From: a virus
Length of the DNA: 57,946 bases
Direction: 5' to 3' (one strand)
IMG/VR virus record: IMGVR_UViG_3300008735_000870
Location: 1-57,946 of that record
Shown: positions 469 through 55,555 of the stretch, piece after piece
Position numbering within the stretch: position 1 is the first letter of the stretch
Layout of the letters: each line of letters opens with the position of its first letter
Translations under genes and position numbers: made by a program
Notes under the pieces: generated by a model
What the model saw: the letters and a program-made list of their open reading frames with translations, nothing else
Databases searched by the model: none
Told to the model about the DNA's origin: nothing

Positions 469-474
469 TAAAAT

Positions 475-36967: not shown

Positions 36968-36996
36968 TTGACTATGTTAATAATTAACTGTATAAT
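36968..36996 (+). promoter_or_regulatory. Near-consensus sigma70 promoter producing a likely leaderless mRNA
   Basis: TTGACT (36968-36973, five of six), a 17-nt spacer and TATAAT (36991-36996, full consensus) precede the gene at 37003. With usual spacing, transcription starts about seven nt after the -10, which is the A of the ATG at 37003. The message would therefore have no leader and no ribosome site. It stands at the head of the overlapping 37-54 kb operon, after the late structural genes, so it marks a switch to host-type transcription. Confidence 0.75.
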
Positions 36997-37002: not shown

Positions 37003-37323
37003 ATGGATATTGGCACCCTTAAAGACTATTCTGATCTAGCACATGATCTAGCACAAATTAAAAAGAATGCTCTGGAAAAAATGCGGAGCAGGCAGATTGT
37101 GGCATATAATGGCAGGCTTTTTCAAGCCAATGCTGAAACCATAAATGTAGTTCAAACATTTAAAGCACATTCTAAAGATTTTTATATGTTGGACACTAAC
37201 GATAATCCTTGTCACATAACAGATCCAGATGAATTTTTGAGAATATTAATTGAAAGAAATCAAGAAACACTTAATACCTATCATCAATTACACGAGGATC
37301 TGAAAAACAAAAGGCTCAAATGA
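37003..37323 (+). CDS. Small helical protein, unknown function, first gene of the glycan/radical SAM operon
   Basis: 106 residues. It is mostly helical: a Lys/Arg-rich start (LAHDLAQIKKNALEKMRSRQ), a central QIVAYNGRLFQANAETINVV segment and a C-terminal helix ending LKNKRLK. The centre recalls phage proteins of the DUF4376 type with a YNGxxFxA motif, often placed near tail-fibre genes, but this is not a firm assignment. The start coincides with the predicted transcription start of the promoter at 36968-36996. It overlaps the next gene by four nt (ATGA). Confidence 0.6.
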   Translation: MDIGTLKDYSDLAHDLAQIKKNALEKMRSRQIVAYNGRLFQANAETINVVQTFKAHSKDFYMLDTNDNPCHITDPDEFLRILIERNQETLNTYHQLHEDLKNKRLK

Positions 37324-38084
37324 CTACAGGTGTATTAATGTACTGTTTCAATACACCGGAAGTTAACTATCATTTGTTAGCAGAACGATGTGTAGCACAA
37401 ATACAAAAACATTTAAAATTAGAAATAACAGTAGTCACTAATATTGAAACTTATAAACAATTCAAACCGTTAGGGTTTATAAATTATAAACTAGTAGACA
37501 ATGCAGTCGGTAATAGACGAAGTTATCGTGGAAAAAATATTGCTTGGCATAATTTAGAAAGAAGTTTAGCATACGAACATTCACCTTATGATACTACTAT
37601 TCTTATGGATTGTGATTATTTTGTGTTTACAGATAATCTTTTAACATACACAAACACAGATTATGATTTTTTACTTCATAATAAAGTACACGATTTAACT
37701 GGTGAAGATATGATTGAAGGAAAAAATGAATCAACTGTACCAATAGTTTGGGCAACAGTAACAATATTTCGTAAATCAACTTTTGCAAAGCAGATGTTTG
37801 ATTTAATTCAGTTAATACAAAAACGTTATGAGCATTATAGAAATTTATATCGGATCAAATATAGAAATTATAGAAATGATTTTGCATTTGCAATTGCACT
37901 ACATCAACTTAATGGAATGATTTCTCATAAAAACTTTATTCCTACTCCAATGGCAATGTTAGCACACGAAGTTGATGTGTTAGATATGTCAGATACAGGA
38001 GTCACATTTAAATATGGCAAAAAAGTTGGTATAACAGAATTACAAGATGTTCATGTAATGGATAAGGAGTTTGTAAATGTCTGA
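37320..38084 (+). CDS. Glycosyltransferase-like protein (GT-A type, DxD)
   Basis: 254 residues. The N-terminus (VLMYCFNTPEVNYHLLAERC) and the following beta-alpha pattern fit a GT-A nucleotide-sugar fold. TILMDCDYFVF places a DxD-type metal motif at Asp97-Cys-Asp99. Residues around 135-200 (VPIVWATVTIFRKSTFAKQM) would form the acceptor side. The donor and acceptor sugars are unknown. It resembles its neighbour at 38077 in length and layout, so the two are probably paralogues. It overlaps both flanking genes, four and eight nt, within one operon. Confidence 0.6.
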   Translation: MTTGVLMYCFNTPEVNYHLLAERCVAQIQKHLKLEITVVTNIETYKQFKPLGFINYKLVDNAVGNRRSYRGKNIAWHNLERSLAYEHSPYDTTILMDCDYFVFTDNLLTYTNTDYDFLLHNKVHDLTGEDMIEGKNESTVPIVWATVTIFRKSTFAKQMFDLIQLIQKRYEHYRNLYRIKYRNYRNDFAFAIALHQLNGMISHKNFIPTPMAMLAHEVDVLDMSDTGVTFKYGKKVGITELQDVHVMDKEFVNV

Positions 38085-38889
38085 TAGAGGATATGTTTGG
38101 TTTGCATTGAACAATTCTACAACTGACTATGTAGAATTAAGCAAAAAACTTGCAAGTTCTATTAAAAAACATAACAAGCATAATCAAGTATGTGTTATTA
38201 CTGATAAACCTGTAGAACATAAAGAAGAAATTGATAAAGTTATTGTATTAAAAAATGATTATAGTAAAGATCAAGAATGGAAGATGAATAATGAGTGGCA
38301 AATTTTTAATTTAACACCTTTTAAACATACAATTAAATTAGAAGCAGATATGTTGTTCACATCAAATACAGACTGGTGGTGGAATTATTTGCATCAGCAT
38401 AATATGGTGTTTTCGTATCATGTTAGATGTTATAGAGATACAATTATTACTAATACACCTTATAGAAAACTTTTTAAAACAAATAATTTGCCAGATGTAT
38501 ACAATGGATTAACTTATTTTAGAAAAAGTAAACAAGCACAATCATTTTATAATATTTGTAAAGATATTATGTTAAATTGGAATACAGTTAGAGATACATT
38601 TTTAATAAATTGTCATGATAAACACTCAACAACAGATGTTGTTTATGCTCTTGCACTAAAAATTCAAGATCCATTGTGTGAAAAACAAATCAAATTTGAA
38701 TGGTTTAATTTTATGCATAATAAAAGTGGAGTAAATGGATTAAGTCGTGCATATATTAATGATCAATATCTATATACAATGATGGTAGGTCATCCTTTAG
38801 TTGGAGAATACATATATTCAGGTGGTTATAAACAATCAAGAATATTTCATTATCATAATAAAAAATTAATAAAGGAATTTTATGACTAA
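38077..38889 (+). CDS. Glycosyltransferase-like protein, possible paralogue of the preceding gene
   Basis: 270 residues. The order of elements repeats the preceding gene: GYVWFALNNSTTDYVELSKK at the N-terminus, VCVITDKP strand, then HTIKLEADMLFTSN with an acidic Glu89-Ala-Asp91 in place of the classical DxD, and a later NGLTYFRKSKQAQSF segment. This suggests a GT-A fold with a modified metal site, so activity is less certain. The substrate cannot be predicted. An AAGGAG site lies upstream inside the previous gene, and the start overlaps that gene by eight nt. Confidence 0.5.
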   Translation: MSDRGYVWFALNNSTTDYVELSKKLASSIKKHNKHNQVCVITDKPVEHKEEIDKVIVLKNDYSKDQEWKMNNEWQIFNLTPFKHTIKLEADMLFTSNTDWWWNYLHQHNMVFSYHVRCYRDTIITNTPYRKLFKTNNLPDVYNGLTYFRKSKQAQSFYNICKDIMLNWNTVRDTFLINCHDKHSTTDVVYALALKIQDPLCEKQIKFEWFNFMHNKSGVNGLSRAYINDQYLYTMMVGHPLVGEYIYSGGYKQSRIFHYHNKKLIKEFYD

Positions 38890-39178
38890 TTTTTGGAAAG
38901 CATTAGAAGAGTTTAAGCCTACTCCACCTAAAAAACATTATCTTACTTTTAATAAAGAAAAAATAGAAGTGACTTTAGAACAATATTTACAAGTTATTAA
39001 TGCAGGAATAGAAAACTTTGAATATAAAGACAAAAAAATTACAAGAAAAAAGCGTATTCCTGCAGAACAATTACAACCAACACTACATTTAGCAGAGGTA
39101 GGTTATCATTTTTATAATGGGGATCCATATTGGGTAATAGGACATAATAGAGAAGGATTTGAATGGCGGATAGAATAA
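38882..39178 (+). CDS. Small protein of unknown function
   Basis: 98 residues. It contains HYLTFNKEKIEVTLEQYLQV, a basic patch (KKITRKKRIP) and a Tyr/Trp-rich end (YHFYNGDPYWVIGHN). No family recognised. It starts eight nt before the end of the upstream glycosyltransferase-like gene, behind an AAGGAA ribosome site, and ends 16 nt into the next gene. It is probably an accessory subunit of the adjacent enzymes, judged only by tight coupling. Confidence 0.55.
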   Translation: MTNFWKALEEFKPTPPKKHYLTFNKEKIEVTLEQYLQVINAGIENFEYKDKKITRKKRIPAEQLQPTLHLAEVGYHFYNGDPYWVIGHNREGFEWRIE

Positions 39179-40056
39179 GAATATCAGATTTAGACTTTGT
39201 TTATATCAGCTATAAGGAACCCAATAAGGAAGAAAATTGGGCAGACTTATTAAGCAAAGTACCTTGGGCAAAAAGAATAGATGGTGTTGTAGGATTTGAC
39301 AATGCACACAAAGCCGCGGCAGAAAAAGCAGAAACAGATTTTTTCATATCAGTTGATGGTGATAATATTATAGATGAAGCATTTTTATTAGAATCATTAG
39401 ATTGGACAAAAACAAATCCAAAAGCTGTACATCGTTGGAGAGCAAAAAATAATGTAAATGGTTTAGTATATGGCAATGGTGGGTTAGTAGGTTGGGATAA
39501 AGAAACGTGTTTACAAATGAAAACTCATGAAAATGCAGATAGTGAAAAAGCACAAATTGATTTTTGTTGGACAGTACCTCATGAAAATTTGCATAATTGT
39601 TATTCAACAACAATTATAAATGTAGATCCACAACAGGCTTTTATTGCAGGATATCGAGAAGGTACTAAAATGAGTTTAGAACAAGGATTACCTGTTGCAC
39701 CAATGCATTTTAAAAAATTAATTCAGCCTTCGAACTTGCGGGTGTTAATAACATGGATGAGTGTAGGTGCTGATATGGAATATGGTCGATTTGCTATGTT
39801 AGGTGCAAGAATGGGTTGTTATGCAACAACTGTTAGAGGAGCAAATATTCTTGAAGTAAGAGATATGGAACAAATGGCCAGTGTATTTACTAAAACTGTT
39901 GAAGATATTGGAACGGATTTACAAGCATATGGAGAATCAGTAAGACGAAGATTGGATTTGCCAGTAGCAGACTATGATGCCGACGAAAGTAAATTGTTTA
40001 AATTCTGTATGCCACAACATATTAATAAAGGAGTACAAGATCGTGAAACAAAGTGA
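39163..40056 (+). CDS. Glycosyltransferase-like protein (DxD motif)
   Basis: 297 residues. The N-terminal half follows a GT-A pattern: DLDFVYISYKEPNKEENWAD, AKRIDGVVGFDNAHKAAAEK, then FFISVDGDNIID with the metal motif Asp65-Gly-Asp67. Proteins with this layout occur in several marine T4-like phages beside fibre genes, annotated as glycosyltransferase. The C-terminal half (AGYREGTKMSLEQ, about 165-178; GARMGCYATTVRGA, about 217-230) is conserved-looking but unassigned. The last 14 nt overlap the GTG start of the first radical SAM gene. The substrate is unknown. Confidence 0.65.
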   Translation: MADRIRISDLDFVYISYKEPNKEENWADLLSKVPWAKRIDGVVGFDNAHKAAAEKAETDFFISVDGDNIIDEAFLLESLDWTKTNPKAVHRWRAKNNVNGLVYGNGGLVGWDKETCLQMKTHENADSEKAQIDFCWTVPHENLHNCYSTTIINVDPQQAFIAGYREGTKMSLEQGLPVAPMHFKKLIQPSNLRVLITWMSVGADMEYGRFAMLGARMGCYATTVRGANILEVRDMEQMASVFTKTVEDIGTDLQAYGESVRRRLDLPVADYDADESKLFKFCMPQHINKGVQDRETK

Positions 40057-41413
40057 TTATAAATCAGATGCTCTAGTTGCCGCAAAGAAATTAGAAACAA
40101 TTTCTCCTACTATGTGTTTGGCTAAATGGAATCAAGTTTCATTACATCTGCCTACAGGATTAACAAATAGCTGTTATCATCCACCTTTGCACCAAATAGA
40201 TTCTACAAATTTAGATAGTAACCCTGCTGAATTACATAATACACCGGAGAAATTAAAACAAAGACAACAAATGCTCAATGGTGAACGTCCTGAAGGATGT
40301 TCTTATTGCTGGAATATAGAAGATACTGGACAAATGTCAGATAGACAGTATCGTTCAGGTGAACCATGGGCTATACAAGATTTTGAGTCGATTAAAAATA
40401 AACCAATTGACTCAGGATGGACGCCGAGATACGTAGAAGTTAATTTTAATAATGCTTGTAACCTCAAGTGTTCTTATTGTTCACCTCAATTCTCGACCAC
40501 GTGGGGACAGGAGATTGCTGTATATGGCCAATATCCAACGTCTCCTCCCCACAACGCTCCAGAACATTTTACTGGCAGACGTAGACCTATTCCTCATAGA
40601 GAACATAATCCATATGTTGATGCATTTTGGAGATGGTGGCCTACGTTATATAAAAATTTAAAACATTTCAGAATGACAGGGGGTGAACCTTTAATGGATA
40701 AAAATACATATGAAGTACTTGAATACATTACATATCACCCTAAACCCGATTTACATTTAAACGTAACGTCAAATTTCTGTCCACCAGATGAAAAATTAAA
40801 AAACAAGTATTTTGATATGGTTAAAAGAATATGTTTAAATGAAGCAGTAGAACATATGATGCAATTCGTATCAGTAGATGCATATGGCAAAAAAGCAGAA
40901 TACATACGTTATGGATTAGATTTTAATCGTATGTTGGATAATGTGGATGAATTTTTGGAACGTATACCAGTGCGTAATTCTATAACGTTTATTATTACCT
41001 ATAATAATTTAAGTGTTACTAGTTTAAATGATTTATTAAGAGATATACGTTTGTTAAGAGAAAAGCATTCAAAAACGTATCAAAGAGTATGGTTTGACAT
41101 ACCATTATTAAGACAACCAGCATGGCAACAGATAACTTTATTGCCAGAATCGTATCAAGAGATACACAAAGCGAATATAGAATATATGAGAGAATTTTCT
41201 GGCGAAGATGAAGGGTTTGGAGGATTCAAAGATTTTGAAATTCAAAAAATGTTACGCAATTTAGCTTATTGGCGCAATAATAAAAACGATAATACGCAAA
41301 ATAAAAAGAACTTTTACGCATTTTTTAACGAACATGATCGCAGACGTGGAACGCATTTTGAAAATACGTTTCCAGAAATGGCGGAATTTTGGACGGAGTG
41401 TAAAAACTTATGA
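40043..41413 (+). CDS. Radical SAM protein with N-terminal twitch/SPASM-like Cys region, copy 1 of 5
   Basis: 456 residues from a GTG start at 40043, chosen because AAAGGAG lies nine nt upstream; the ATG at 39974 would overlap the previous gene by 83 nt without a ribosome site. N-terminal Cys residues (MCLAKW, SCYHPP, GCSYCW) form a twitch/SPASM-like region, normally C-terminal to the radical SAM core. The core has Cys139-x3-Cys143-x2-Cys146 for the [4Fe-4S] cluster that cleaves S-adenosylmethionine, then TGGEPLM (about 211-217). The end is HDRRRGTHFENTFPEM, shared in form with copy 2. Substrate unknown; peptide, sugar or nucleotide are all possible. Confidence 0.85.
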   Translation: MKQSDYKSDALVAAKKLETISPTMCLAKWNQVSLHLPTGLTNSCYHPPLHQIDSTNLDSNPAELHNTPEKLKQRQQMLNGERPEGCSYCWNIEDTGQMSDRQYRSGEPWAIQDFESIKNKPIDSGWTPRYVEVNFNNACNLKCSYCSPQFSTTWGQEIAVYGQYPTSPPHNAPEHFTGRRRPIPHREHNPYVDAFWRWWPTLYKNLKHFRMTGGEPLMDKNTYEVLEYITYHPKPDLHLNVTSNFCPPDEKLKNKYFDMVKRICLNEAVEHMMQFVSVDAYGKKAEYIRYGLDFNRMLDNVDEFLERIPVRNSITFIITYNNLSVTSLNDLLRDIRLLREKHSKTYQRVWFDIPLLRQPAWQQITLLPESYQEIHKANIEYMREFSGEDEGFGGFKDFEIQKMLRNLAYWRNNKNDNTQNKKNFYAFFNEHDRRRGTHFENTFPEMAEFWTECKNL

Positions 41414-42165
41414 AAAAAATAATAACAACAGGTTGTAGTTATACAAAATATAAATGGCCATGTTGGCCAAACTTTTTATCATGGTTTGAAAATGGGTATG
41501 ATTTAAAAAATTTAGGAGCGGCAGGTAACTCTAACGAAATTATAATGAGATCAGTTTATAATGCTATTAATAAATGGAAGAGTAGTACAGAGAAAGTTTA
41601 TATTATGTGGTCAGGAACAAATAGATATGAAATTGTACACGATAAGATTGACCAAGATTTGAAAAAAGATGAAACTGTTACATATTCTCGTTGGGATCCA
41701 GACTTTAATTGGAATGTTTTTTATGGTGGTCATTATTTTAAAGACAAACATGAATATTATGTACGTTGGTTTCAAAACGAAAGGCAAAATGATGTACGTA
41801 TGCTTGAAAGGATTTTGTTTACACAAATGTATTTAGAAAAGCATAATATTGAATATAAAATGATGTGTTATCGAGGACATATTATTATGCACGACAAAGA
41901 TAAAATGTCAAATGGACAAAGGGCATTATACAATAAAATTGATTGGAGTAAGTTTATATTTTATAAAGACTTTGGTGGATTAGATGACTTTGCTTATGAA
42001 TTATATCCTGAACAATTTGCAGAAAAAAGTGATCTACATCCGTTACCATTTACACATTATAAATGGGTTAAAGATATTATTTTTAAAAGTGACATAGAAC
42101 CACCAGAAGAGGAATATAGGAAATTAAAAGAATGGAAGACCTTAAATTTAAAAAAGAAAAACTAG
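41410..42165 (+). CDS. SGNH/GDSL-hydrolase-like protein, copy 1 of 2
   Basis: 251 residues. The blocks of the SGNH fold can be traced: GCSYT at the N-terminus (Ser10 as likely nucleophile), LGAAGNSNEIIMRSV (block II Gly and Asn), WSGTNR (block III Asn) and SDLHPLPFTHY (Asp208, His210). SGNH enzymes remove or transfer acyl groups from sugars, lipids or peptides. Identity across the full family is low and there are large inserts, so the call is by motif. The start overlaps copy 1 of the radical SAM genes by four nt and the end overlaps copy 2 by 34 nt. A related protein is at 47213. Confidence 0.6.
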   Translation: MKKIITTGCSYTKYKWPCWPNFLSWFENGYDLKNLGAAGNSNEIIMRSVYNAINKWKSSTEKVYIMWSGTNRYEIVHDKIDQDLKKDETVTYSRWDPDFNWNVFYGGHYFKDKHEYYVRWFQNERQNDVRMLERILFTQMYLEKHNIEYKMMCYRGHIIMHDKDKMSNGQRALYNKIDWSKFIFYKDFGGLDDFAYELYPEQFAEKSDLHPLPFTHYKWVKDIIFKSDIEPPEEEYRKLKEWKTLNLKKKN

Positions 42166-43478
42166 ATACAAAGTCAGCATCATTTTGTGCGGCTAAATGG
42201 TACAATGCGACTATATGGTTAGGATCAGGACAAACAACATCTTGTCACCATCCATTGCCACACGCAATTAATCTGGAAGAAATAAAAACAAATCCTTCTG
42301 CAATACACAATACAAAACAGAAAAAAGAACAACGAAGACAAATGCAAGTTGGAGAACGACCTGCAGGATGTGAATATTGTTGGAAAATTGAAGACATAGG
42401 ACGAGATGCAATATCAGATAGAGTATATAAATCAAAAATTTATTCTGATATGGCATTAGATGATGCATTTAGAACAGATTATAAAACAGATTATAATTTA
42501 AAAACTTTAGAAATTGCATTTGATAGAACTTGCAACTTTGCTTGTTCATATTGTAATCCTGCATTTAGTACAACGTGGGCAAATGACATCAAATATAAAG
42601 GTCCATATAAAAATTTAACAACAGATGGGCGTAATCACTTTACTCATGCACACGATTCTGCAGAACCATATAAAAAAGATGAAGCAAATCCATATGTAGA
42701 AGCATTTTACAAATGGTGGGAGACAGATTTGCATAAAAGTTTAGATGAATTAAGAATTACAGGTGGAGAACCAATGATGTCACCAAATTTATGGCGATTA
42801 TTAGATTGGTTTGAGACACAAAAGGATAAAATTAACCCAAATATGCGTTTGGCTATAAACTCCAATTTAGGGGCAAAAAGTGAAATGATAGAAAAGTTCA
42901 AAGCCAAACTTAAACACTTTGACAACTTTCATTTATATACATCAATGGAGGCAACAAACGAACAAGCAGAATATATTAGAGATGGTTTAAATTATTCACA
43001 ATGGTTTGTTGAAGTTGTTAACATGATGCAAGATCGTGTGCCATCACAAATTCATAATATGTGTACCATTAATGCTTTATGTTTAGAATCGTTGCCACAG
43101 TTTTTAGAAACAATTGTTAAACAAAAAGAAAGTGCTTGTAAGCATTATGGAATACCTTTTAATTTTACTTTAAATATTTTAAGATTTCCTAGCTTTCAAA
43201 GTGCTTTAGTTCTACCCGACGACTTGCGTAATATGTTTAAACAGAATTTAGAAAAATTTTTACGGCAATTTGGCTCGCTATTAGAGGAAATGGAAATTAA
43301 TCAGGTCCAAAGATTAGTGGATTATTTGGATGTTGTGAAGACTCCACATAAGGATTCTGCATCAGTTGATAAGTTAAGAAAAGATTTTAAAACATTTTAT
43401 ACACAATATGATAAAAGAAGAGGAAAGAATTTTGAAAAAACTTTCCCAATTATAGGAGAATGGTACCGTGGCATATGA
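42132..43478 (+). CDS. Radical SAM protein with N-terminal twitch/SPASM-like Cys region, copy 2 of 5
   Basis: 448 residues, the closest relative of copy 1. N-terminal Cys set: FCAAKW, SCHHPLPHAI, GCEYCWKIED. Radical SAM cluster motif Cys134-NFA-Cys138-SY-Cys141 is intact, followed by RITGGEPMMSPN (about 211-222) and NSNLGAKSE. The C-terminus YDKRRGKNFEKTFPIIGEW mirrors copy 1. Copies 1 and 2 share the spacing CWxIED between the N-terminal Cys pair and the core, so they look like an internal duplication separated by the SGNH gene. The start lies inside the SGNH gene behind an AGGAAA site. Substrate unknown. Confidence 0.85.
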   Translation: MEDLKFKKEKLDTKSASFCAAKWYNATIWLGSGQTTSCHHPLPHAINLEEIKTNPSAIHNTKQKKEQRRQMQVGERPAGCEYCWKIEDIGRDAISDRVYKSKIYSDMALDDAFRTDYKTDYNLKTLEIAFDRTCNFACSYCNPAFSTTWANDIKYKGPYKNLTTDGRNHFTHAHDSAEPYKKDEANPYVEAFYKWWETDLHKSLDELRITGGEPMMSPNLWRLLDWFETQKDKINPNMRLAINSNLGAKSEMIEKFKAKLKHFDNFHLYTSMEATNEQAEYIRDGLNYSQWFVEVVNMMQDRVPSQIHNMCTINALCLESLPQFLETIVKQKESACKHYGIPFNFTLNILRFPSFQSALVLPDDLRNMFKQNLEKFLRQFGSLLEEMEINQVQRLVDYLDVVKTPHKDSASVDKLRKDFKTFYTQYDKRRGKNFEKTFPIIGEWYRGI

Positions 43479-44760
43479 GTACGGGGCAAAAGAGCCTGAG
43501 AAATTAAAAATAAAAAATATGACTCCTAAACAAAAGGAGTTGTTAATAGAAAGTGAATCATTTTGTATGTTACCGTGGATGCATCTTCACGCATATCCAG
43601 ATGGTAGAGCATATCCTTGTTGTTTTGCTTTTGATCCTTATCCAGTAGGTGATTTAAACAAGCAAAGTTTAAAAGAAGTTTTTAATAATGATAAAATGAA
43701 AGAAATGCGTTTGAAAATGTTGAATAATAAAAAATCACGTGAATGTATAAAGTGTTATGACCAAGAAAAATCAGGATTTTTTAGTTTACGTTTAAGTTCT
43801 AATAAGCACTTTGGACATAATATTGGACTAGTTGATTCAACACAACCTGACGGTACTGCTGACTTTGTAATGAAATATTGGGATATACGTTTTTCCAACT
43901 TATGCAATATGGCTTGTAGAAGTTGTGGTACATGGTTTAGTTCTAACTGGTATGAAGACCATAAAAAATTAACAGGTAGTCCTCCTCCCCATGCAAAAAT
44001 AATGAGAGTTGGTAGATATACAAACGATTTGTGGGAACAGATGTTAGAATCATTTGAGCACACAGAACAATTTTATTTTGCTGGAGGTGAACCAATTATT
44101 ATGGAAGAACATTATAGAATATTAAAAGAATTAGATAAACGTAAAATGTATCACGTAAGATTAATTTATAATACTAATTTTAGTAGAACTAAATTTAAAG
44201 ACATAGATGTTTTTGAGCTATGGAACAAATTTGATTCAGTTTCAATTGGTGCAAGTTTAGATGCAGAAGGCCCACGTGGAGAATTAATGCGTAAAGGTAC
44301 TGTATGGAAAGATATTGTTGCTAATAGAAAAAGAATGATGGAAGTTTGTCCTAAAGTAGATTTTTATATAAGTTCTACTGTTGGTTTAGTTAATTCTTTA
44401 CACGTTTGTGATTTTCATAAAAGTTGGGTAGAACAAGGATTAATTAAATCACAAGATTTCAATTATAATTTATTACAACATCCTACTTGGCAAAGAATAG
44501 ATTTACTTCCACCTGAGTTTAAACAGCAAGTAAAAGAAAAGTATGATGCACATATGAAATGGTTAAAAGATAAAGACCCATTAACAAGGGCAACTAAAGG
44601 GTTTGAATCAGCATTAAATTGGATGTTTAAAACAGATAATCAAAAACATTTGGATTTACATTTTGCACAAACACGAAAATATGATGAAATTAGGAACGAA
44701 AAAACACTAGATGTATTTCCAGAATGGAAGGAGTTATTTAACAAGTATGAAAAGAAATAA
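43468..44760 (+). CDS. Radical SAM protein with N-terminal SPASM-like region, copy 3 of 5
   Basis: 430 residues. The N-terminal Cys region is the clearest SPASM-like form of the five: SFCMLPWMHLHAYPDGRAYP, then CC and a CIKCYDQEKSG pair (about 93-103). In most SPASM proteins this block follows the core, whereas here it precedes it. The radical SAM motif is Cys146-NMA-Cys150-RS-Cys153, then YFAGGEPIIMEEH (about 203-215), and NTNFSRTKF. The C-terminal region (DLHFAQTRKYDEIRNEKTLD) has no assigned role. It overlaps copy 2 by 11 nt and copy 4 by 14 nt. Confidence 0.85.
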   Translation: MAYEYGAKEPEKLKIKNMTPKQKELLIESESFCMLPWMHLHAYPDGRAYPCCFAFDPYPVGDLNKQSLKEVFNNDKMKEMRLKMLNNKKSRECIKCYDQEKSGFFSLRLSSNKHFGHNIGLVDSTQPDGTADFVMKYWDIRFSNLCNMACRSCGTWFSSNWYEDHKKLTGSPPPHAKIMRVGRYTNDLWEQMLESFEHTEQFYFAGGEPIIMEEHYRILKELDKRKMYHVRLIYNTNFSRTKFKDIDVFELWNKFDSVSIGASLDAEGPRGELMRKGTVWKDIVANRKRMMEVCPKVDFYISSTVGLVNSLHVCDFHKSWVEQGLIKSQDFNYNLLQHPTWQRIDLLPPEFKQQVKEKYDAHMKWLKDKDPLTRATKGFESALNWMFKTDNQKHLDLHFAQTRKYDEIRNEKTLDVFPEWKELFNKYEKK

Positions 44761-48037: not shown

Positions 48038-48134
48038 TTGGTTAAAAAATTTAATCAAAAAGATTAAGCAAGAATTTGCTTATCGTAAAAGATTAAAAGA
48101 ACTAAAGAAAAAAGACCCTTTTATATACAAATAA
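48030..48134 (+). CDS. 34-residue basic amphipathic small protein
   Basis: The ORF starts at ATG 48030 directly after a strong GGAGG ribosome site and ends at TAA 48132-48134, with the kinase ATG at the very next base. The protein begins MFSWLKNLIKKIKQEFAYRK and is rich in Lys and Arg, likely a single amphipathic helix. It overlaps the SGNH gene stop by eight nt. Ribosome site, packing and codon use argue for translation; function is unknown. A membrane-associated helix or a coupling leader for the kinase are both possible. Confidence 0.65.
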   Translation: MFSWLKNLIKKIKQEFAYRKRLKELKKKDPFIYK

Positions 48135-48572: not shown

Positions 48573-50023
48573 GGATATTAGGAATAAATTGCATGAACCA
48601 TGACGCCGCAATGGCAGTAGTAGACGACAGAGAAATTCTGTGGGCCGCACATTCAGAACGTTATTCAAGAATTAAAAATGATCATTTCTTAAATCAAGCA
48701 ATTGTTGACGAAGCAAAAACATATGGACCGTTTGATAAAGTTGTTTATTATGAAAAACCTTTGTTAAAGAAAACTAGACAACTATATGCAGGACAATATA
48801 GTGATGCTTTAAGTTATACAGAAATGCCACAATGGAATTTGGATAGGTTTGGAATTAAAATTGATGAATATGTAAATCATCATAATTCACACGCCGCGGC
48901 AGGATATTTTACATCACCATTTAAAGAAGCAGTAATTCTTACAGTTGATGCAATTGGAGAATGGGATACAGTGTCTATATCAGTTGCAAAAGGAAATAAA
49001 ATTGAACGGAAAGAAACTATAAGGTATCCGCATTCATTAGGAATATTGTATTCTGCATTTACACAACGTTGTGGATTAAAACCTGCAGAAGAAGAATATA
49101 TTTTAATGGGAATGGCGGCATATGGAAAACCAGATTATAAAGATGATATATATGAAGATTTTGTTCAGCAAGGTCCTTTTAAATTAAAACAAAACTTACA
49201 TCAAGGTATAGGTAATTGGCACGCCGGCGCAGATCCAGTTGATCTTGCCGCATCAGTACAAGCTGTTCTTGTAGAATGTCTTGCAAATTTATGGCAAAGA
49301 GCATCTGAGTATGGTAGTAAAAATTTAGTTTATGTAGGAGGTGTTGCATTAAATTGTGTAGCTAATTCAGGACTTGCTAATATGGGATTGTTTGATAATA
49401 TTTGGATTATTCCTAATCCGGGTGATGCAGGATCTTCAATAGGATGTATTGCGGCTTCAGAACAAAAACATTTAAATTGGAAAAATCCATTTTTAGGTTA
49501 TAACATTAAAAGTGAATATCCAGTTGATGCAATTATAAAAGAATTAACAGAAAGTAAAATTTGTGGAGTTGCAAATGGTAAAGCAGAGTTCGGACCACGA
49601 GCACTTGGTAATAGATCGCTTTTGGCTGATCCGAGAGGTCCAGGGATTAAGGATATGGTAAATCGAATTAAGAGAAGACAGAAATTTAGACCATTCGCTC
49701 CGGCTATTTTAGAAGAGGATGTAAATGACTATTTTGCTCTCCCAACCCCCGTAAAAAATACCCCTTATATGCAGTTTACAGCGGCGTACACGCATGGTAA
49801 AGACTGTCCTGCCATTATACACTATGATAACTCAAGCCGTGTGCAAACCGTGTCTAAAAGCGATAACGAAGGGTTTTATGAGCTGTTAAAAGCATGGAAA
49901 AAAAAGACAGGGTGCCCAATGCTTCTAAATACTAGTTTGAATATTAAGGGGCAACCGATGGTAAATGACATCGAAGATGCCAATGCATTTACCTACAAAT
50001 ATGGAGTAAAGGTATGTCAGTAA
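48569..50023 (+). CDS. Carbamoyltransferase (NodU/CmcH/TobZ family)
   Basis: 484 residues. The family transfers a carbamoyl group from carbamoyl phosphate, through a carbamoyl-adenylate, to a hydroxyl, often on a sugar. Motifs: GINCMNHDAAMAVVDD (residues 5-20), the metal-binding HHNSHAAAGYF near 107-117, ILTVDAIGEWDT, then GGVALNCVANS (about 257-267) and the C-terminal domain GPRALGNRSLLADPR (about 345-359), all conserved. Marine T4-like phages often carry such genes. From about residue 345 to the end the DNA looks more GC-rich with different codon use than before, which suggests a recombined 3' end. It overlaps the next gene by ten nt. Confidence 0.9.
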   Translation: MRILGINCMNHDAAMAVVDDREILWAAHSERYSRIKNDHFLNQAIVDEAKTYGPFDKVVYYEKPLLKKTRQLYAGQYSDALSYTEMPQWNLDRFGIKIDEYVNHHNSHAAAGYFTSPFKEAVILTVDAIGEWDTVSISVAKGNKIERKETIRYPHSLGILYSAFTQRCGLKPAEEEYILMGMAAYGKPDYKDDIYEDFVQQGPFKLKQNLHQGIGNWHAGADPVDLAASVQAVLVECLANLWQRASEYGSKNLVYVGGVALNCVANSGLANMGLFDNIWIIPNPGDAGSSIGCIAASEQKHLNWKNPFLGYNIKSEYPVDAIIKELTESKICGVANGKAEFGPRALGNRSLLADPRGPGIKDMVNRIKRRQKFRPFAPAILEEDVNDYFALPTPVKNTPYMQFTAAYTHGKDCPAIIHYDNSSRVQTVSKSDNEGFYELLKAWKKKTGCPMLLNTSLNIKGQPMVNDIEDANAFTYKYGVKVCQ

Positions 50024-50508
50024 ATTTTGAATTTAAGTTTAAAAATATTAATCCTGTTAATAACAAGTATCCAATTTGCAGAATAGAACTTAATAGTAAT
50101 GATATTTGTGTTGGTAAAGTAGAGCGAAGAATAGTTTTAGATGCAGACACGCAGGAGAACAATGTCTTAAGAATATTTTTTGAAAACAAAGGGAACAAGG
50201 ACACTATTTTAGATGATAACAATAAAATTAAACAAGATCTAAATTTTGAATTAGAAAAATTAACTATAGACGGGATCGATTTGCAACATTTGATATGGGA
50301 GAGCAGATATGTTACTAAAGACTCTGTGATTGATTCTTGTTTGTTTTTTGGGCCAAAAGGATATTGGGAATTAAAATTTGATACACCTGTATTGAAATGG
50401 TTTCTAAAGACCAATCATAATAAGAACAACAACGATCCTACCTGGGAGGAAGATTACAAATATTACGAAGAATCATGTCAGATATTAAACAAAATACAGA
50501 TAAAATAA
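50014..50508 (+). CDS. Unknown protein, beta-rich N-terminus
   Basis: 164 residues, no family recognised. Residues about 1-50 are alternating beta strands (FEFKFKNINPVNNKYPICRI, CVGKVERRIV), and the rest contains LFFGPKGYWELKFDTPVL and a charged C-terminal helix. The fold could be a small beta sandwich such as a carbohydrate-binding module, but this is speculative. It overlaps the carbamoyltransferase by ten nt and the next gene by 34 nt. Codon choice is less TTA-biased than in most of the window, like the adjoining aminotransferase-like gene. Confidence 0.55.
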   Translation: MSVNFEFKFKNINPVNNKYPICRIELNSNDICVGKVERRIVLDADTQENNVLRIFFENKGNKDTILDDNNKIKQDLNFELEKLTIDGIDLQHLIWESRYVTKDSVIDSCLFFGPKGYWELKFDTPVLKWFLKTNHNKNNNDPTWEEDYKYYEESCQILNKIQIK

Positions 50509-51545
50509 CAAAGATTGCTTGGGCACTAATGACAGCCTCAGCAAAAAAGAAGTTGGATGTTCCGGGTGAATACCTATGGAATATTCCAGTAAGTGATGAA
50601 TTCCACGAGATAAGGTCCAAATCTTGGAGTGTGTATTCTAGTGGTAACTGCATAAAGGATCAACACTTGAGAGATTTTATTCAAGGTATCAATTTGAACA
50701 AATCCTTACGAGACCCTTACGTAGTGAAAAAATTTGAGGAGTATTTTCCGGTGTGGTTGAAACAATGTCCAAGGTATCAATTAAAAGGCATTAATGATTT
50801 CAAATACAGTTGTTTCTCACAAGGTTCACAAGAATACTTTGTAAATTTTTATTTGAAATACCGGGATAAAAGATTTCGAGTATTCAAAGGAGAGTACTGG
50901 TGGCACATGGAGGTTTGGAAACATTTAGAACTTAAATGGGCGTACATAGAAGATGACGATTTGGGTGCCGATGACGTTGTAATATTAAGTTTTCCTTTTG
51001 CACGGTTAGGTGACGAACATCCACAGCAAAAAGATTTGTTGGAACAGTGTGAAAGAATTGGCATACCAGTAATGTTAGATTTCATATACATACCCAACGC
51101 GACGTATGATACTCTACAAATTGATTTGACACCAACTTGCATTAAGTCTTTAAGTTTTAGTTTCAGTAAAGCGTTTCCAGTAGGAAATGCCAGAATAGCA
51201 TTACGAATGACAAGGGAAAAAATAAAAGATCCAATGCAGATAAGCAATGATGAAAACGTTGCTAACAGGCTTGCCTCGGGTCTTGGTTTACAGTTAATGA
51301 AAAATTATAATGTAGATTACATGGTTGAAAAATACTTCGACGAACAAAAACATTGGTGTAGGTCTCTTGGATTGAAACCAACAAAGGTGGTGCATTTCGC
51401 TTTAGGTGAACCATTCACTGAGCATGGTAGAAAGAATAATAAAAGATTTTTTAGTGAATTTAATGATCAACAAAATAGATATAATCTTGGACCTCTTTTT
51501 GAAAATAAAAAATTATTACAAACTTTAGGATTTTATGAATATTAA
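50475..51545 (+). CDS. PLP-dependent aminotransferase-like protein (fold type I)
   Basis: 356 residues. Typical fold type I elements are present: VVILSFPFARLGDEHPQQKD (the strand preceding the cofactor Asp), IPVMLDFIYIPN with Asp202 that would bind the pyridine nitrogen, and SLSFSFSKAFPVGNARIAL with Lys232 as the Schiff-base lysine. The usual Gly-rich N-terminal motif is altered (SCFSQGSQEYFVNF), so substrate and even activity are uncertain. A class I aminotransferase acting on a sugar or amino acid intermediate fits the neighbourhood. Codon use differs from flanking genes. Overlaps the next gene by 11 nt. Confidence 0.65.
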   Translation: MSDIKQNTDKITKIAWALMTASAKKKLDVPGEYLWNIPVSDEFHEIRSKSWSVYSSGNCIKDQHLRDFIQGINLNKSLRDPYVVKKFEEYFPVWLKQCPRYQLKGINDFKYSCFSQGSQEYFVNFYLKYRDKRFRVFKGEYWWHMEVWKHLELKWAYIEDDDLGADDVVILSFPFARLGDEHPQQKDLLEQCERIGIPVMLDFIYIPNATYDTLQIDLTPTCIKSLSFSFSKAFPVGNARIALRMTREKIKDPMQISNDENVANRLASGLGLQLMKNYNVDYMVEKYFDEQKHWCRSLGLKPTKVVHFALGEPFTEHGRKNNKRFFSEFNDQQNRYNLGPLFENKKLLQTLGFYEY

Positions 51546-52629
51546 ATTTACTGGATTAGACAGATTGTATGATAGTTTTAGTTGGCGTATAACAAGACGT
51601 GCCAAAGCAGTATGGAAGAGTGGTAATATGATAATTGGTCGTCATGTTTTAACTAGTGAAGTTGCACAACTTGAAACTAGTATTGCAAAATATACAAAAA
51701 GAGAATATGCAGTTGCAGTTGGTAGTGGAACTGATGCGTTATATTTTGCTCTTAAGACGAAAGGAATAGGTCCTGGTAAAAATGTTTTATGTCCAGCAGT
51801 ATCTTTTATGGCAACTGCAGAAGCAATTAAAAGAACCGGAGCAAGTATTGAATTTATTGATATTGATGAAAATGGTCAAATTGGTCAACTTACACCAATT
51901 AATAAAGTTGATGCAGTAGTATATGTAAATCTTTTTGGTAATTTAGCAAATTATGATCGGCTTAAAACGTTTTGTGAAGAAAGAAAAATTCCATTAATAG
52001 AAGATGCCGCACAATCGTTAGGATCATTTTATAAAAAAATTCCATCAGGAAAATTAGGTGATATTAGTGTATTAAGTTTTGCACCATCAAAACCTTTACC
52101 AGCATTTGGAAATGGTGGAATGGTAGTATGTGATACTTTAGAAGAAGCTCAGGCTATTAGAGCATATCGTTATCATGGAGCAGGACCAATACGTATTAGT
52201 CATGGATACAATTCTGTATTATCTGAAGATCATGCCGCTATATTAAATTTTCTATTTTCAAAATATAAAGGGTTACTTAAAAAGAGAGCAAAGATTAGAC
52301 GATGGTATGAAGAAGAGTTTGACAAAATGCATATTAATAGTGTTAAAACACCAGAAAAAACAGTAAGCAATAATCACAAACTAGTACTTAAATTGCAAAA
52401 TAGAGATGAATTACAAATATTTTTAGCTAATAAAGGTATTGAAACGCAAGTACATTATAAAAAACCTATGCCAGAGTTATATTTTTTTAAAAAAGATCCA
52501 TTAGTTAATGGGTATTGGAAAGCAGAAGCATTTTGTAAAGAAGTTATTTCGTTGCCAATTTATCCTTATCTTAAAGAAGAAGAAGTAAAATACATTTGTA
52601 AATGTATTCAGGAATTTTATGGCGTTTGA
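51535..52629 (+). CDS. DegT/DnrJ/EryC1/StrS family sugar aminotransferase
   Basis: 364 residues, standard size. The family makes aminosugars from keto nucleotide-sugars using PLP. Motifs: YAVAVGSGTDALYFALKTKG (phosphate binding, about 56-75), CPAVSFMATAEAIKRTGA, IEDAAQSLGSFYKK (Asp in the cofactor strand) and ISVLSFAPSKPLPAFGNGGM with Lys186 as the Schiff-base lysine. All catalytic features are intact. It sits in the operon with glycosyltransferase-like genes, close to the epimerase and deacetylase at 53913-55555, so it probably supplies an amino sugar. Start overlaps the previous gene by 11 nt. Confidence 0.9.
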   Translation: MNIKFTGLDRLYDSFSWRITRRAKAVWKSGNMIIGRHVLTSEVAQLETSIAKYTKREYAVAVGSGTDALYFALKTKGIGPGKNVLCPAVSFMATAEAIKRTGASIEFIDIDENGQIGQLTPINKVDAVVYVNLFGNLANYDRLKTFCEERKIPLIEDAAQSLGSFYKKIPSGKLGDISVLSFAPSKPLPAFGNGGMVVCDTLEEAQAIRAYRYHGAGPIRISHGYNSVLSEDHAAILNFLFSKYKGLLKKRAKIRRWYEEEFDKMHINSVKTPEKTVSNNHKLVLKLQNRDELQIFLANKGIETQVHYKKPMPELYFFKKDPLVNGYWKAEAFCKEVISLPIYPYLKEEEVKYICKCIQEFYGV

Positions 52630-53947
52630 TTGTTATTGTATTAATTTTCAAAATAAAAAAAGTAAAGAAAATATAAACAAAATTAAACAAGTTTTTCCAT
52701 ATGTTAAAGTAATGCCTTTTATAAAAAGTTATTATGATTTAAGTAAAGTTATAATAGAATCAGCTAATACTGAATATGTGTGGATGTTAAGTAGCAAAAT
52801 AGATTACACAAAATTTGATTTTAATTATATACCAGAACAATTTGAAGCAAAACAATTGCACACATGGAGTTGTCCAACACAAAAAGAAGGCGATACGTTT
52901 TTATTTCATAAATCTTTTACAACACAAAATATAAAATTTTTAAGAGATTTTGAACACGTAAATTATCATACAGAAAATTTAAAATATGATAATGATGTAG
53001 AAGCAGTTGAATTTAATTTAAGTAATGTTATTGAATCATTACCAAAAAATAAAATTCCAAATTCACAATATATTAGATATTATGAAACTGGAGAAGAAGA
53101 AGAAATGTTTTATCCATCGTATTGGGAAGATTTAAAAATATATCTAGCAGGAAAAACGTTTTATATTCCTCGTAAAGCTCTACAAGATATTAGAACACAG
53201 TTATATGATTATAATTTACTGTACACAATAAAAGATAATAACAAAAAAGATTGCTTTGATGTTATTTTTATTTCAAATGGAGAGCCTTTTGAACAAGAAA
53301 ATTTTGATATTTTACAAGCTCATATTAAAAAATATAGTTTAAAAAATAAATTACATTGGGTAAAAAATGTTAAAGGTAGAAGTCAAGCATACAAAGAAGC
53401 CGCTAAACAGTCTAATACAGAATATTTTTATGCCGTATTTGCTAAAAGTATTGTAGCAGATACATTTATGTTTGATTATACAATAGATAGATGCTTAACA
53501 AAAAGACATTATATTTTTCATTCTCGTTTAGAAGAATTAGATCTAGATTATGGTACATTTAACATTAATATCTATAATAAAAGTTTATGTTTAGCTACTG
53601 CTAATGATAATATTTTAGATTTTACATTATCACAACCACATGAAGTAATATCAATTATTGCTAGTACATCATTATTAACACCCGACAATTATACTGCATG
53701 GAAAAATGCATTTAGAGAAGTTTCAAAATTAATATTATGGAATGAACGTAAACCTACTGTAGAAACATCTTATAGATTAAAAAAATGGATGGCAACGGAA
53801 CATAAATGGTTAGCACGTGGTTCAAAAGATGCAAAAGATTTTGTTAAAGAATGTGCGTATGATGAAGATAAAATTTTACAAACTTATACTTGGGATTTTT
53901 GTAGAAGTAAATTTAAATCTTTGTACCCAACGGAAACTTTTTATTAA
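52619..53947 (+). CDS. Large glycosyltransferase-like protein, unassigned
   Basis: 442 residues. Two half-similar segments appear: residues 1-200 (FDCYCINFQNKKSKENINKI; YVWMLSSKIDYTKFDF; WSCPTQKEGDTFLFHKSFTT) and 210-400 (FDVIFISNGEPFEQENFDIL; YFYAVFAKSIVADTFMFDY; FHSRLEELDLDYGTFNINIY). Each recalls a Rossmann-like sugar-transferase half with an acidic loop; I recall similar proteins in marine phages with no function assigned. Classical DxD is not obvious. It is the last + strand gene; its 3' end runs 35 nt into the epimerase gene on the other strand with no terminator hairpin seen. Confidence 0.5.
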   Translation: MAFDCYCINFQNKKSKENINKIKQVFPYVKVMPFIKSYYDLSKVIIESANTEYVWMLSSKIDYTKFDFNYIPEQFEAKQLHTWSCPTQKEGDTFLFHKSFTTQNIKFLRDFEHVNYHTENLKYDNDVEAVEFNLSNVIESLPKNKIPNSQYIRYYETGEEEEMFYPSYWEDLKIYLAGKTFYIPRKALQDIRTQLYDYNLLYTIKDNNKKDCFDVIFISNGEPFEQENFDILQAHIKKYSLKNKLHWVKNVKGRSQAYKEAAKQSNTEYFYAVFAKSIVADTFMFDYTIDRCLTKRHYIFHSRLEELDLDYGTFNINIYNKSLCLATANDNILDFTLSQPHEVISIIASTSLLTPDNYTAWKNAFREVSKLILWNERKPTVETSYRLKKWMATEHKWLARGSKDAKDFVKECAYDEDKILQTYTWDFCRSKFKSLYPTETFY

Positions 53948-54914
53948 TATCTAAATTTTCAAAATAAAATGGTTGTCCTAAAAACCAATTCATATATTTT
54001 GGGATACCTTCTTCAATATCTATTGTAGGATTAAAATTTAGCATAGTCTTTGCTTTGTCACTATTAAGTGTATCTCTGTTTGGATAAAAATCGTCATGTG
54101 GTTTAGTAATAATTGTTCCTGTACCTAGTTTTTGTTTTATTATTTCAGCCGCTTCAATAATTTTTCTACCATATCCTCTTGTACAATTAAATGTTTCATT
54201 TATAATTTCGTTTGTACAAACTAAAGAAAAATATTCTGCTACGTCAAGCACATTAGAAAAATCTAATTTATTATCAGGTCCTTGCACAGTCATTGTTCCG
54301 GTAGTTAATACATTTTTTAATAAATGACTAATCACCCTTGTTACTGTATCTCGAGTACCATAAACTGCCGAAGGTCTCATTATTACATAGTTTAATCCGT
54401 GTTGTCGATGCCAAATTTTGCATAAAATTTCTCCTTGTCTTTTATACGAACCATAGACTGTATTTGGTTTAGGTATTACATTTTCGTCAGGTATTTGTTT
54501 ATTAAATTCTCCATATACCATACTGCTAGATGCATATACAATTTTTTCAACTTTATGTTTTACACATAAGTCTAAAATATATGAAGTAGCAGTAATCATA
54601 TTGTTCGTAGCATCAGCTACATTTCTTTTGACCATTTTTGCATTTGGATAGGTTGCAACGTGAATAACTCTGTCGGGTTTAAAATCTTCAAACGCTTGTT
54701 CCATGAATTGTAAATTTTCAATTTGTCCAATATATTCTTTATCGGTTTGTGTAATTTCTTTTCTTTGTGATAATATAGGTTGGTATTCCCAATTAGGAAA
54801 TGTATAATATTGATGATAACAATCAACTACACCAATAATATGATTGTCTTTTTTTAATTGTTGACAAATATGACTACCAATAAATCCATATCCACCTAAT
54901 ACTAATATTCTCAT
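53913..54914 (-). CDS. NAD-dependent sugar epimerase/dehydratase (extended SDR)
   Basis: 333 residues. The Rossmann motif GGYGFIGSH (residues 7-15) and the catalytic Y154-GSY-K158 (YxxxK) are present, with YASSSMVYGEFN (about 127-138) supplying the Ser. VIMRPSAVYGTR and YNCTRG-like NCTRGYGRKI follow as substrate-binding elements. These enzymes convert nucleotide-linked sugars, for example by epimerisation or dehydration. It starts four nt after overlapping the PIG-L gene (ATGA), so the pair is coupled. Its 3' end overlaps the convergent + strand gene by 35 nt. Confidence 0.88.
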   Translation of the reverse strand: MRILVLGGYGFIGSHICQQLKKDNHIIGVVDCYHQYYTFPNWEYQPILSQRKEITQTDKEYIGQIENLQFMEQAFEDFKPDRVIHVATYPNAKMVKRNVADATNNMITATSYILDLCVKHKVEKIVYASSSMVYGEFNKQIPDENVIPKPNTVYGSYKRQGEILCKIWHRQHGLNYVIMRPSAVYGTRDTVTRVISHLLKNVLTTGTMTVQGPDNKLDFSNVLDVAEYFSLVCTNEIINETFNCTRGYGRKIIEAAEIIKQKLGTGTIITKPHDDFYPNRDTLNSDKAKTMLNFNPTIDIEEGIPKYMNWFLGQPFYFENLDINKKFPLGTKI

Positions 54915-55555
54915 ACGTCTTTTTTAAACATTATTTGAAATGTTTCTGCAATTTTGTTTGATCCTAAAAACTCGCCTCGATATTTGTTGTAATTAATTAT
55001 TTGATTTATAGCACTATCAGAAAAATATGAGTTATATGCTTCAATACTTTTACGTTTTGTATTAATGTAATCACTAATATCAATATACAAATTGCATTTA
55101 AAATTTTTATAATGTAAATTGTAAGGTGTTTCGTCCATACACCAAAATTGTTCAAAGTTTTTTCTTGCTATACTTCTTGCAATTTTGTGACAAGTTTGAT
55201 GGTCTTGATGGTGATCTTCCTGCCAATGACTAATTAAAATGTCATGTCTTTTTGCAATTTTTTCAACGTCAGTAATTACATTATTAGTAAGAGTTAAATT
55301 TGGTCTATGGTTGTTGTGTAGTGGAGTATCATATATTATAGTTTTATGTTTTAAAATTGCATTACTATTTGTTAATTCTTTTTTAACAACTTCTTGATTT
55401 CTTTTTGGATGCTCTTCTGCCGCCGGTTGTACCATTATTAAGTTTGTTACTGATCCGCCATGGGCGAGAATTTTTGCTACTAATCCTCCACAACCTACTT
55501 CCATATCTTCAGGATGAGCAGTTAATATAAAAAACTTTTTAGAAAATGCTTTCAT
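54911..55555 (-). CDS. PIG-L/LmbE family deacetylase
   Basis: 214 residues. The family removes acetyl groups from N-acetyl amino sugars with a zinc ion. Motifs: AHPEDMEVGCGG (His14, Glu16, Asp17; the usual AHPDDxE has Asp in place of Glu16), LISHWQEDHHQDHQ (His110 and Asp114 region, His119) and MVQPAAEEHPKRNQE with the conserved Arg. The D-to-E change at position 16 is conservative. It pairs with the epimerase downstream and would act with the DegT aminotransferase in an amino-sugar route. The start has no strong ribosome site. Confidence 0.85.
   Translation of the reverse strand: MKAFSKKFFILTAHPEDMEVGCGGLVAKILAHGGSVTNLIMVQPAAEEHPKRNQEVVKKELTNSNAILKHKTIIYDTPLHNNHRPNLTLTNNVITDVEKIAKRHDILISHWQEDHHQDHQTCHKIARSIARKNFEQFWCMDETPYNLHYKNFKCNLYIDISDYINTKRKSIEAYNSYFSDSAINQIINYNKYRGEFLGSNKIAETFQIMFKKDV

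Follow-up and report, generated by a model that had tools for sequence, protein, structure and literature searches.

The 57,946-nt contig of a T4-like phage deposited as IMG/VR record IMGVR_UViG_3300008735_000870 (the window, always meant at its full length) carries, directly 3' of its tail-fibre-type genes and on the same strand, a cluster that encodes five radical S-adenosyl-L-methionine (SAM) enzymes, R1 to R5. All five are members of the NCBIfam family NF033640 (N_Twi_rSAM, twitch domain-containing radical SAM protein). Judged from their sequences, they are non-redundant and not copies of one another, and in related viral contigs they recur as an ordered set beside glycosyltransferase-like genes. 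The reading favoured here, at somewhat less than an even chance, is of a soluble pathway in the cytosol, encoded by the cluster, by which a carbamoylated, radical-tailored glycan is built and attached, most likely to the host envelope. The five enzymes are the following.

R1: 39974-41413, + strand, N-terminal-twitch radical SAM enzyme (NF033640, 337 bits)
R2: 42132-43478, + strand, N-terminal-twitch radical SAM enzyme (NF033640, 304 bits)
R3: 43468-44760, + strand, N-terminal-twitch radical SAM enzyme (NF033640, 397 bits)
R4: 44711-46072, + strand, N-terminal-twitch radical SAM enzyme (NF033640, 307 bits)
R5: 46054-47220, + strand, N-terminal-twitch radical SAM enzyme (NF033640, 366 bits)

The curated cut-off of the NF033640 model is 170 bits, and the five matches span nearly its whole length. 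The open reading frame (ORF) of R1 overlaps the preceding gene, E, by 83 nt, and the true start of R1 may lie downstream of the annotated one. The CxxxCxxC and GGEP motifs are intact in each of the five enzymes, in agreement with the first-pass annotation of this DNA. An alignment of 33 sequences (R1-R5 with orthologues, plus five Vibrio phage K566 proteins) has seven invariant cysteines, shared by 33 of 33 rows. This is the number to be expected from a radical SAM cluster together with one auxiliary cluster, and the auxiliary half is situated before the radical SAM domain. From these intact cofactor-site residues, R1-R5 are predicted to carry two Fe-S clusters and to cleave SAM. The median ratio of nonsynonymous to synonymous substitution rates (dN/dS), taken over unsaturated pairs, is 0.088 for R1, 0.050 for R2, 0.046 for R3, 0.033 for R4 and 0.039 for R5, with single pairs reaching 0.30. 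All five genes are under purifying selection, and the earlier statement that the copies are not decaying is borne out by this as well as by the intact residues.

The structure model of R3 has a predicted local distance difference test (pLDDT) score of 93.3. Its structural matches are BlsE (Z 14.0, root-mean-square deviation 3.4, 218 aligned residues), anSME (13.5), CteB (13.5), DesII (13.0) and viperin (13.0); SuiB and SkfB score level with the sugar enzymes. BlsE, DesII and BtrN are radical SAM enzymes of sugars or aminocyclitols. They have the radical SAM fold in common with the phage enzymes, and BlsE is the top structural row for R3, but the auxiliary domain is at the opposite end and the identity in the BlsE and DesII rows is 10-15%. 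The family profile also matches BtrN residues 164-238, which align with the N-terminal part of R1-R5. Only about 30 residues precede the twitch domain in the R3 model, and R3 thus lacks a recognition domain fused to its N-terminus. The BFVD structure library contains related radical SAM proteins from uncultured phages, and enzymes of the NF033640 type recur in phages and bacteria.

The five paralogues have 22-33% mutual identity, R2 being nearest to R1 (33%), whereas each type keeps about 49-88% identity across 33 phage loci. In a quick IQ-TREE tree, which has some long branches and was assessed by Shimodaira-Hasegawa-like approximate likelihood-ratio (SH-aLRT) support only, R3 groups with a Candidatus Jettenia protein (SH-aLRT 98), R5 with Bdellovibrionota proteins and one copy from locus L111 (95), and R1/R2 with two proteins of a Bdellovibrionales metagenome-assembled genome (MAG) (100). 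R4 is on a long branch of its own; its position and the split between R1 and R2 are not placed by this tree. A recent tandem duplication as the origin of R1-R5 was rejected on the contrast between identity among paralogues and identity within a type, together with the separate bacterial groupings.

The enzymes are part of a conserved core that extends from 37003 to about 50023. Its remaining features, with the promoter that precedes it, are listed below.

Promoter: 36968-36996, + strand, sigma-70-like, TTGACT-17-TATAAT, leaderless type; 6 nt separate the -10 hexamer from the ATG of A
A: 37003-37323, + strand, 106 amino acids (aa), first gene of the unit; no Pfam family; 30 of 33 phage loci
B: 37320-38084, + strand, 254 aa, glycosyltransferase-like by eye (DCD stretch); no Pfam match; 30 of 33 phage loci
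C: 38077-38889, + strand, 270 aa, glycosyltransferase-like by eye, resembles B; phrog_1903 (unknown function), no Pfam; 31 of 33 phage loci
D: 38882-39178, + strand, 98 aa, small fast-evolving protein; 77 of 80 loci found with E as bait have it between C and E
E: 39163-40056, + strand, 297 aa, putative GT-A (glycosyltransferase)/nucleotidyltransferase-like fold with an invariant DGDN, from alignment and structure model; no Pfam
S1: 41410-42165, + strand, DUF6071/SGNH-like (Pfam DUF6071); in its own place in 13 of 33 phage loci (two more matches are S2)
S2: 47213-48037, + strand, SGNH-pattern hydrolase/transferase (G-G-C-S, G-N, D-x-x-H) from an alignment of 14 sequences; no Pfam family
K: 48135-48572, + strand, P-loop kinase (APS-kinase/AAA_33-like, Pfam), a variable gene; 6 of 33 phage loci
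CT: 48569-50023, + strand, NodU-type O-carbamoyltransferase (Pfam), end of the core; 29 of 33 phage loci (the four without it are short)

The 33 viral phage loci were obtained with R5 as query. Vibrio phage K566 was dropped from the tallies, its R matches being paralogous; paralogue matches were removed by hand for S1 (to S2) and for R1 (in L034), and no count is given for a further gene, G, which matches E. R2-R5 are present in all 33 loci and R1 in 32, the exception being a contig that starts inside R2. The order in the 11 listed maps is A-B-C-(D)-E-R1-(S1, another gene or none)-R2-R3-R4-R5-S2-(variable)-CT; two of these maps have one more ORF, which separates R3 from R4. R2-R5 are therefore strictly tandem, as had been claimed for all five, but R1 is separated from R2 by S1 in the window.

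Because R5 had itself been the query, the search was repeated with E as an independent bait. The set so obtained consists of the best 80 of 209 relatives, and many of its contigs overlap the R5-query set or are near-duplicates. A gene of the NF033640 type starts no more than 400 nt after E in all 71 loci that have at least 1.2 kb of downstream sequence, and exactly R1-R5, in the same order, are found in 50 of the 53 loci with at least 7.5 kb downstream. The remaining three (L211, L213 and L214) have a single enzyme, of the R1 type, and amount to two kinds, since L213 and L214 share an identical E. With S2 as bait, a radical SAM gene lies just upstream in 54 of 55 loci. The co-occurrence in related phages proposed earlier thus holds for the core genes.

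Some relatives carry more family members and others fewer. At E <=0.001, NF033640 matches on the longer relatives number 9 in G001, 10 in G003, 9 in G010 and 10 in G023; a stricter profile built for this analysis gives 8 in G001 and 9 in G003. The phage-like contig G066:C6, found in a Rickettsiales MAG, has 17 ORFs with radical SAM motifs in about 27 kb (6906-34077, that is, from L216 6906 to L217 14077). Nine of the 17 exceed the NF033640 cut-off, and all are downstream of the A-B-C-E genes. At the other extreme, B, C, E and G are present in L221 together with a different radical SAM gene, identified by eye, and no gene of the NF033640 type occurs in the 21 kb examined of this 376-kb contig, the rest of which may hold one. 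The range from none (L221) through one (L211, L213) and five (the window) to more (L216) suggests a staged growth, in which an older glycosyltransferase-like module gained radical enzymes. We infer the direction of such a build-up, and L216, with an R3-type enzyme beside E, does not fit a simple series. Genes resembling a tripartite tricarboxylate transporter were noticed by eye further along G066:C6, at 40346-43455 (L218 ~346-3455).

The unit appears to have a promoter of its own. TATAAT stands 4-7 nt before the start of gene A in 48 of 59 distinct loci and in none of 581 starts of B, C, E, R1-R5, S2 and CT taken together. Of the eleven loci that miss it, the six listed all have either a shifted start or a hexamer that differs by one or two bases. 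The same layout was seen by eye in L216; L213, L211 and L221 do not have it. Promoter-like matches across the stretch are at chance level (121 found, 112 expected), and the case for the promoter therefore rests on its conservation. The T4 late octamer TATAAATA is strongly under-represented: the window has 2 copies, G001 2 and G003 9, where about 14, 28 and 29 would be expected. In the window the two copies (4414 and 11008) precede virion genes, and a late promoter for the cluster was rejected on these grounds. The cluster is thus probably a separate, early and possibly leaderless unit, early because, in contrast to the virion genes, it stands behind a sigma-70-like promoter of its own. Other genes of G001 and G003 (in L120, L121, L132 and elsewhere), including one that is QueE-like by eye, have a TTGAC-like and a TATAAT hexamer, the latter 5-7 nt before their starts. 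The nucleotide pattern suggests leaderless transcripts in this phage lineage.

The model of E has a pLDDT of 72.5. Its N-terminal half resembles nucleotidyltransferases and GT-A enzymes (Z 7-9), and a GT-A-like fold is tentatively proposed for E on the basis of this medium-confidence model. The best Foldseek match has an E value of 4.5e-3, none reaching 0.001. Of the three to four glycosyltransferase-like proteins proposed in the first-pass annotation, B, C, E and G all stand outside any Pfam family. In the SGNH pattern the serine lies in a G-x-S motif, with a glycine in block II, an asparagine in block III and D-x-x-H in block V. Residues S15, G59/G61, N62, D251 and H254 of S2 are invariant in 14 of 14 sequences. 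S1 and S2 are similar to each other (E 5e-6), which suggests that Pfam DUF6071, to which S1 belongs, may be an SGNH-type family. Of the two SGNH-like hydrolases proposed earlier, S2 keeps the catalytic pattern without a Pfam match, and S1 is identified as a DUF6071 protein. CT has both domains of its family, Carbam_trans_N (E 1.3e-46) and Carbam_trans_C (E 2.6e-53).

Gene A precedes B in 77 of the 80 E-bait loci, two of the other three being cut off. A likeness of A to DUF4376-type fibre chaperones was unsupported, the A protein of the window having no Pfam family even at E <=1. In D, several of the most conserved residues are near the C-terminus. Hydropathy analysis gives no clear membrane segment in the 20 cluster proteins; R5 has one borderline hydrophobic window, and the other 19 have none.

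The 3' part, 50014-55555, is a variable cassette whose content, order and strand differ between phages. The 18.5 kb taken earlier for one unit therefore consist of the core and this cassette, to which the co-occurrence described above does not extend.

F: 50014-50508, + strand, 164 aa, unknown protein; 1 of 33 loci, only the second contig of this phage
P1: 50475-51545, + strand, 356 aa, pyridoxal-phosphate (PLP)-enzyme-like by eye only, no Pfam match; 1 of 33 loci, only the second contig of this phage
P2: 51535-52629, + strand, DegT/DnrJ/EryC1 sugar aminotransferase (Pfam, E 1.5e-72)
G: 52619-53947, + strand, 442 aa, E-like domain (25% identity to E, E 7e-11); no Pfam
Epimerase: 53913-54914, - strand, NAD-dependent sugar epimerase/dehydratase (Pfam, E 3.7e-39)
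PIG-L: 54911-55555, - strand, PIG-L type deacetylase (Pfam, E 5.8e-13); 9 of 33 loci

The P-loop kinase, O-carbamoyltransferase, NAD-dependent epimerase and PIG-L deacetylase recognised earlier are confirmed by Pfam. Of two supposed PLP aminotransferases, P2 is a DegT enzyme by Pfam; P1 is PLP-like by eye only.

Partners that are glycan enzymes are often found in the window, in other phages and in some bacteria. In L211, A-B-C-E-R1 occur with a UDP-glucose/GDP-mannose dehydrogenase, a DUF6071 protein, a carbamoyltransferase and G; in L216, B-C-E occur with a radical SAM gene, a DUF6071 protein and a sugar dehydrogenase. In Vibrio phage K566 two GT8 genes stand among four genes of the NF033640 type (of which one is annotated as hypothetical) at L006 21543-29288, and a fifth is at L006 37861-38916; its family matches number six in all. 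In bacteria, the Candidatus Jettenia relative of R3 follows an ABC2_membrane gene, a gene for an ABC ATPase bearing Wzt_C and a GT2 gene, and precedes another GT2 gene. In L048 and L080, from Bacteroidetes MAGs, a carbamoyltransferase-like gene comes directly after a relative of R3; further along lie a gene of the GDSL type, scanned in L080, and one for a group-1 glycosyltransferase, scanned in L048. Of 72 bacterial loci, 8 have carbamoyltransferase genes, where 0.47 would be expected from the density of 55 over-cut-off carbamoyltransferase genes (some partial) in 30 genomes. The comparison uses all 72 loci, since a subset of 31 had been selected when the number of loci with hits was already known.

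Bacterial loci also show multiplication of the family. One uncultured Elusimicrobia bin accounts for 13 of 78 NF033640-type loci (L050, L051, L053, L054, L057-L059, L061, L063, L064, L066, L068 and L077), with up to eight genes per locus, some of them fused, by eye, to TPR-like repeats. Three such genes stand in a row in the Bacteroidota loci L072, L075 and L078. The WelO5 halogenase family has two matches in the scanned set of bacterial neighbours.

If the favoured reading is correct, B, C and E (with G) would act as GT-A-type glycosyltransferases, and R1-R5 would perform five different successive radical steps on a sugar or sugar conjugate, for example dehydration, epimerisation, decarboxylation or deamination. 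BlsE and DesII catalyse radical steps of such a kind on nucleotide sugars. S2 and S1 would edit acyl groups, CT would add an O-carbamoyl group, and the variable 3' cassette (epimerase, DegT enzyme, PIG-L protein and G) could provide different sugars in different phages. A glycan so placed on the host envelope might alter the receptor and thereby exclude competing phages. Successive steps fit better than alternative ones, both of which had been suggested, because all five enzymes are kept, their order is constant and the tree puts them on different branches. The host envelope is favoured over the virion as the target on account of the early-type promoter and the polysaccharide contexts of some bacterial relatives. 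Two of 11 records searched, G001 and G010, have an A-type carrier gene, which agrees with a need for Fe-S supply. We infer the glycan substrate, the order and type of the radical steps, the early timing, the host-envelope target and superinfection exclusion. A bolder version, which is held more tentatively, is that the cluster is a viral multi-step radical assembly line leading to a class of radical-tailored, carbamoylated glycoconjugates not seen before, and that its ancestor was a fibre-linked glycosyltransferase-like module to which radical enzymes were added in stages.

Several observations weigh against the envelope-glycan pathway. The near-equal Z values of 13-14 for BlsE, anSME, CteB, DesII and viperin mean that the fold cannot tell a sugar enzyme from a peptide enzyme, and no substrate was found in print for any NF033640 member. 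No lipid carrier, flippase, polymerase or exporter was recognised in the cluster. IscU had no match in any of 11 records searched. The adjoining enzyme in L216 is of the R3 type, so that E and R1 do not form a strict minimal pair. No terminator was found before gene A, and late read-through into the unit is therefore possible. In bacteria, the eight carbamoyltransferase loci include several close relatives and reduce to about five independent groups, for which P is ~1e-4. A tally that took in 115 neighbours out of 228 selected, with closer loci making up most of it and with most Saprospiraceae and other distant loci and some long proteins left out, has GT2, DegT and carbamoyltransferase twice each and other radical SAM proteins 14 times among the 25 families listed of 113. 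L055, L082 (Reichenbachiella) and L086 (Paenibacillus) have no glycan context by eye. Lastly, the position of the cluster next to tail-fibre-type genes fits decoration of the virion equally well.

Such decoration is the next most likely reading, not far behind the favoured one. The pathway would then act in the cytosol, ahead of assembly, to glycosylate a tail-fibre protein or another protein of the virion, the radical steps serving to diversify the virion sugar. In the window, L213 and L216, genes of the tail-fibre or virion type immediately precede the module, and the absence of a clear membrane segment from the 20 proteins agrees with this. The fold neighbours of E include the PBCV-1 capsid-glycosylation enzyme and collagen galactosyltransferase (Z 7-8), and A or D, each with its constant position in 77 of 80 loci, could be the acceptor. 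However, the unit has a sigma-70-like promoter and not one of the TATAAATA type, and some of the bacterial relatives adjoin polysaccharide genes. The enzymes might instead place cross-links, epimers or other marks on D, A or the fibre, in the manner of maturases of ribosomally synthesised and post-translationally modified peptides, which is unlikely. Many characterised SPASM/twitch enzymes use peptides (PMC11002830). The level fold scores of anSME, CteB, SuiB and SkfB also allow such a role, and D, which is small, fast-evolving, conserved near its C-terminus and fixed beside E/R1, could be a substrate. Yet R3 lacks a fused recognition domain, no homologue of D was detected in the distant modules, no precursor-like core was seen in D, and several of the partners are sugar enzymes.

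Hypermodification of the phage DNA is highly improbable. Thymidine hypermodification pathways combine a radical SAM isomerase with PLP enzymes and a P-loop kinase, and the cluster does bring together P-loop kinase, PLP enzyme, glycosyltransferase-like and radical SAM genes. The kinase is found in just 6 of the 33 phage loci and P1 in one, however, and no gene of the thymidylate synthase family was found in six records searched, which are fragments or of unknown completeness.

The left half of the window encodes SbcC/SbcD-type nucleases, a T4-type late sigma factor, baseplate proteins, a 4537-aa virion protein (phrog_10938) and tail-fibre-type proteins. In the top rows of the searches, the baseplate wedge protein (gp6) is nearest to those of PA5oct, Atu_ph07 and related jumbo phages (34-38% identity), as is the late sigma factor to those of PA5oct/Atu_ph07-type jumbo phages (41-46%). 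The ten organism names listed, of fifteen, for the baseplate protein include neither a cyanophage nor a pelagiphage. The G+C fraction is 0.28-0.37. A second contig, G001 (117.8 kb), covers the window from 28750 to its end and agrees with it at 29187 of 29197 positions, and the cluster is thus no accident of assembly. Two genes of G001 resemble curli csgF and csgG by eye (111690-114440; L124 ~11690-14440); curli-type csgF/csgG genes are reportedly known from pelagimyophages. A host could not be derived from MAG binning, the lineage contigs L041-L045 being scattered over Verrucomicrobia, Flavobacterium, Betaproteobacteria, Pelagibacter and Rickettsiales MAGs, where they are probably contamination.

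A near-DNA search of the whole cluster against GenBank phages gave no match, and neither the E protein of the window nor the R1-type enzyme of L213 had a match in 50,697 GenBank phage records. Protein searches of GenBank phages found relatives of R5 in three records and of R2 in two, all below 27% identity. Vibrio phages K566 and K567 are named phages with a radical SAM and GT8 region, at about 25% identity; the K566 stretch searched has no homologue of A-E, S or CT, unlike the window.

The host recognition cluster of pelagimyophages, which are T4-like, is a large tail-fibre island that has GT8-type genes and also radical SAM cassettes, the latter not being the same in the two genomes described (PMC7029224). 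The window shares tail fibres and radical SAM genes with that island, as described there, but its five enzymes are fixed and its baseplate is nearest to the PA5oct/Atu_ph07 type. The island sits between VrlC and gp14 in that description; the cluster follows fibre-type genes and the 4537-aa virion protein, and VrlC and gp14 were not recognised in the window. A carbamoyltransferase is also present in pelagiphage HTVC008M. The T4-like ocean genome TARA_ERS488813_N000010 can be likened to this phage in published gene content, since it has 12 radical SAM genes along with one for an A-type Fe-S carrier (PMC5332604). Radical SAM genes are prevalent in Tasman Sea viromes (PMC7150976). The earlier term, an undescribed system, is too strong for the cluster, given that NF033640 has a curated NCBI model and that radical SAM cassettes have been published for phages of this sort (PMC5332604, PMC7029224). 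No description of the fixed A-B-C-D-E-R1..R5-S2-CT module, the pairing with E, the promoter or the link to NF033640 was found in the literature searched, in which few subscription journals were covered.

R1-R5 score above the NF033640 cut-off and have the auxiliary-cluster half in front, but the model name gives no reaction. What the window adds is five distinct members as a fixed, ordered, non-redundant set beside glycosyltransferase-like genes, and this narrows the question of NF033640 function to one pathway. E with one radical SAM enzyme is a small candidate unit, and Vibrio phage K566, which has related enzymes, is a possible laboratory model. A change of the host O-chain against competitors has been proposed for the glycosyltransferases of the pelagimyophage island (PMC7029224), and the module extends this idea without proving it. 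If the product is a sugar of the host surface, the cluster would represent a viral repainting of cells by radical chemistry; if it is a sugar of the virion, it would add a new layer to the control of phage host range.

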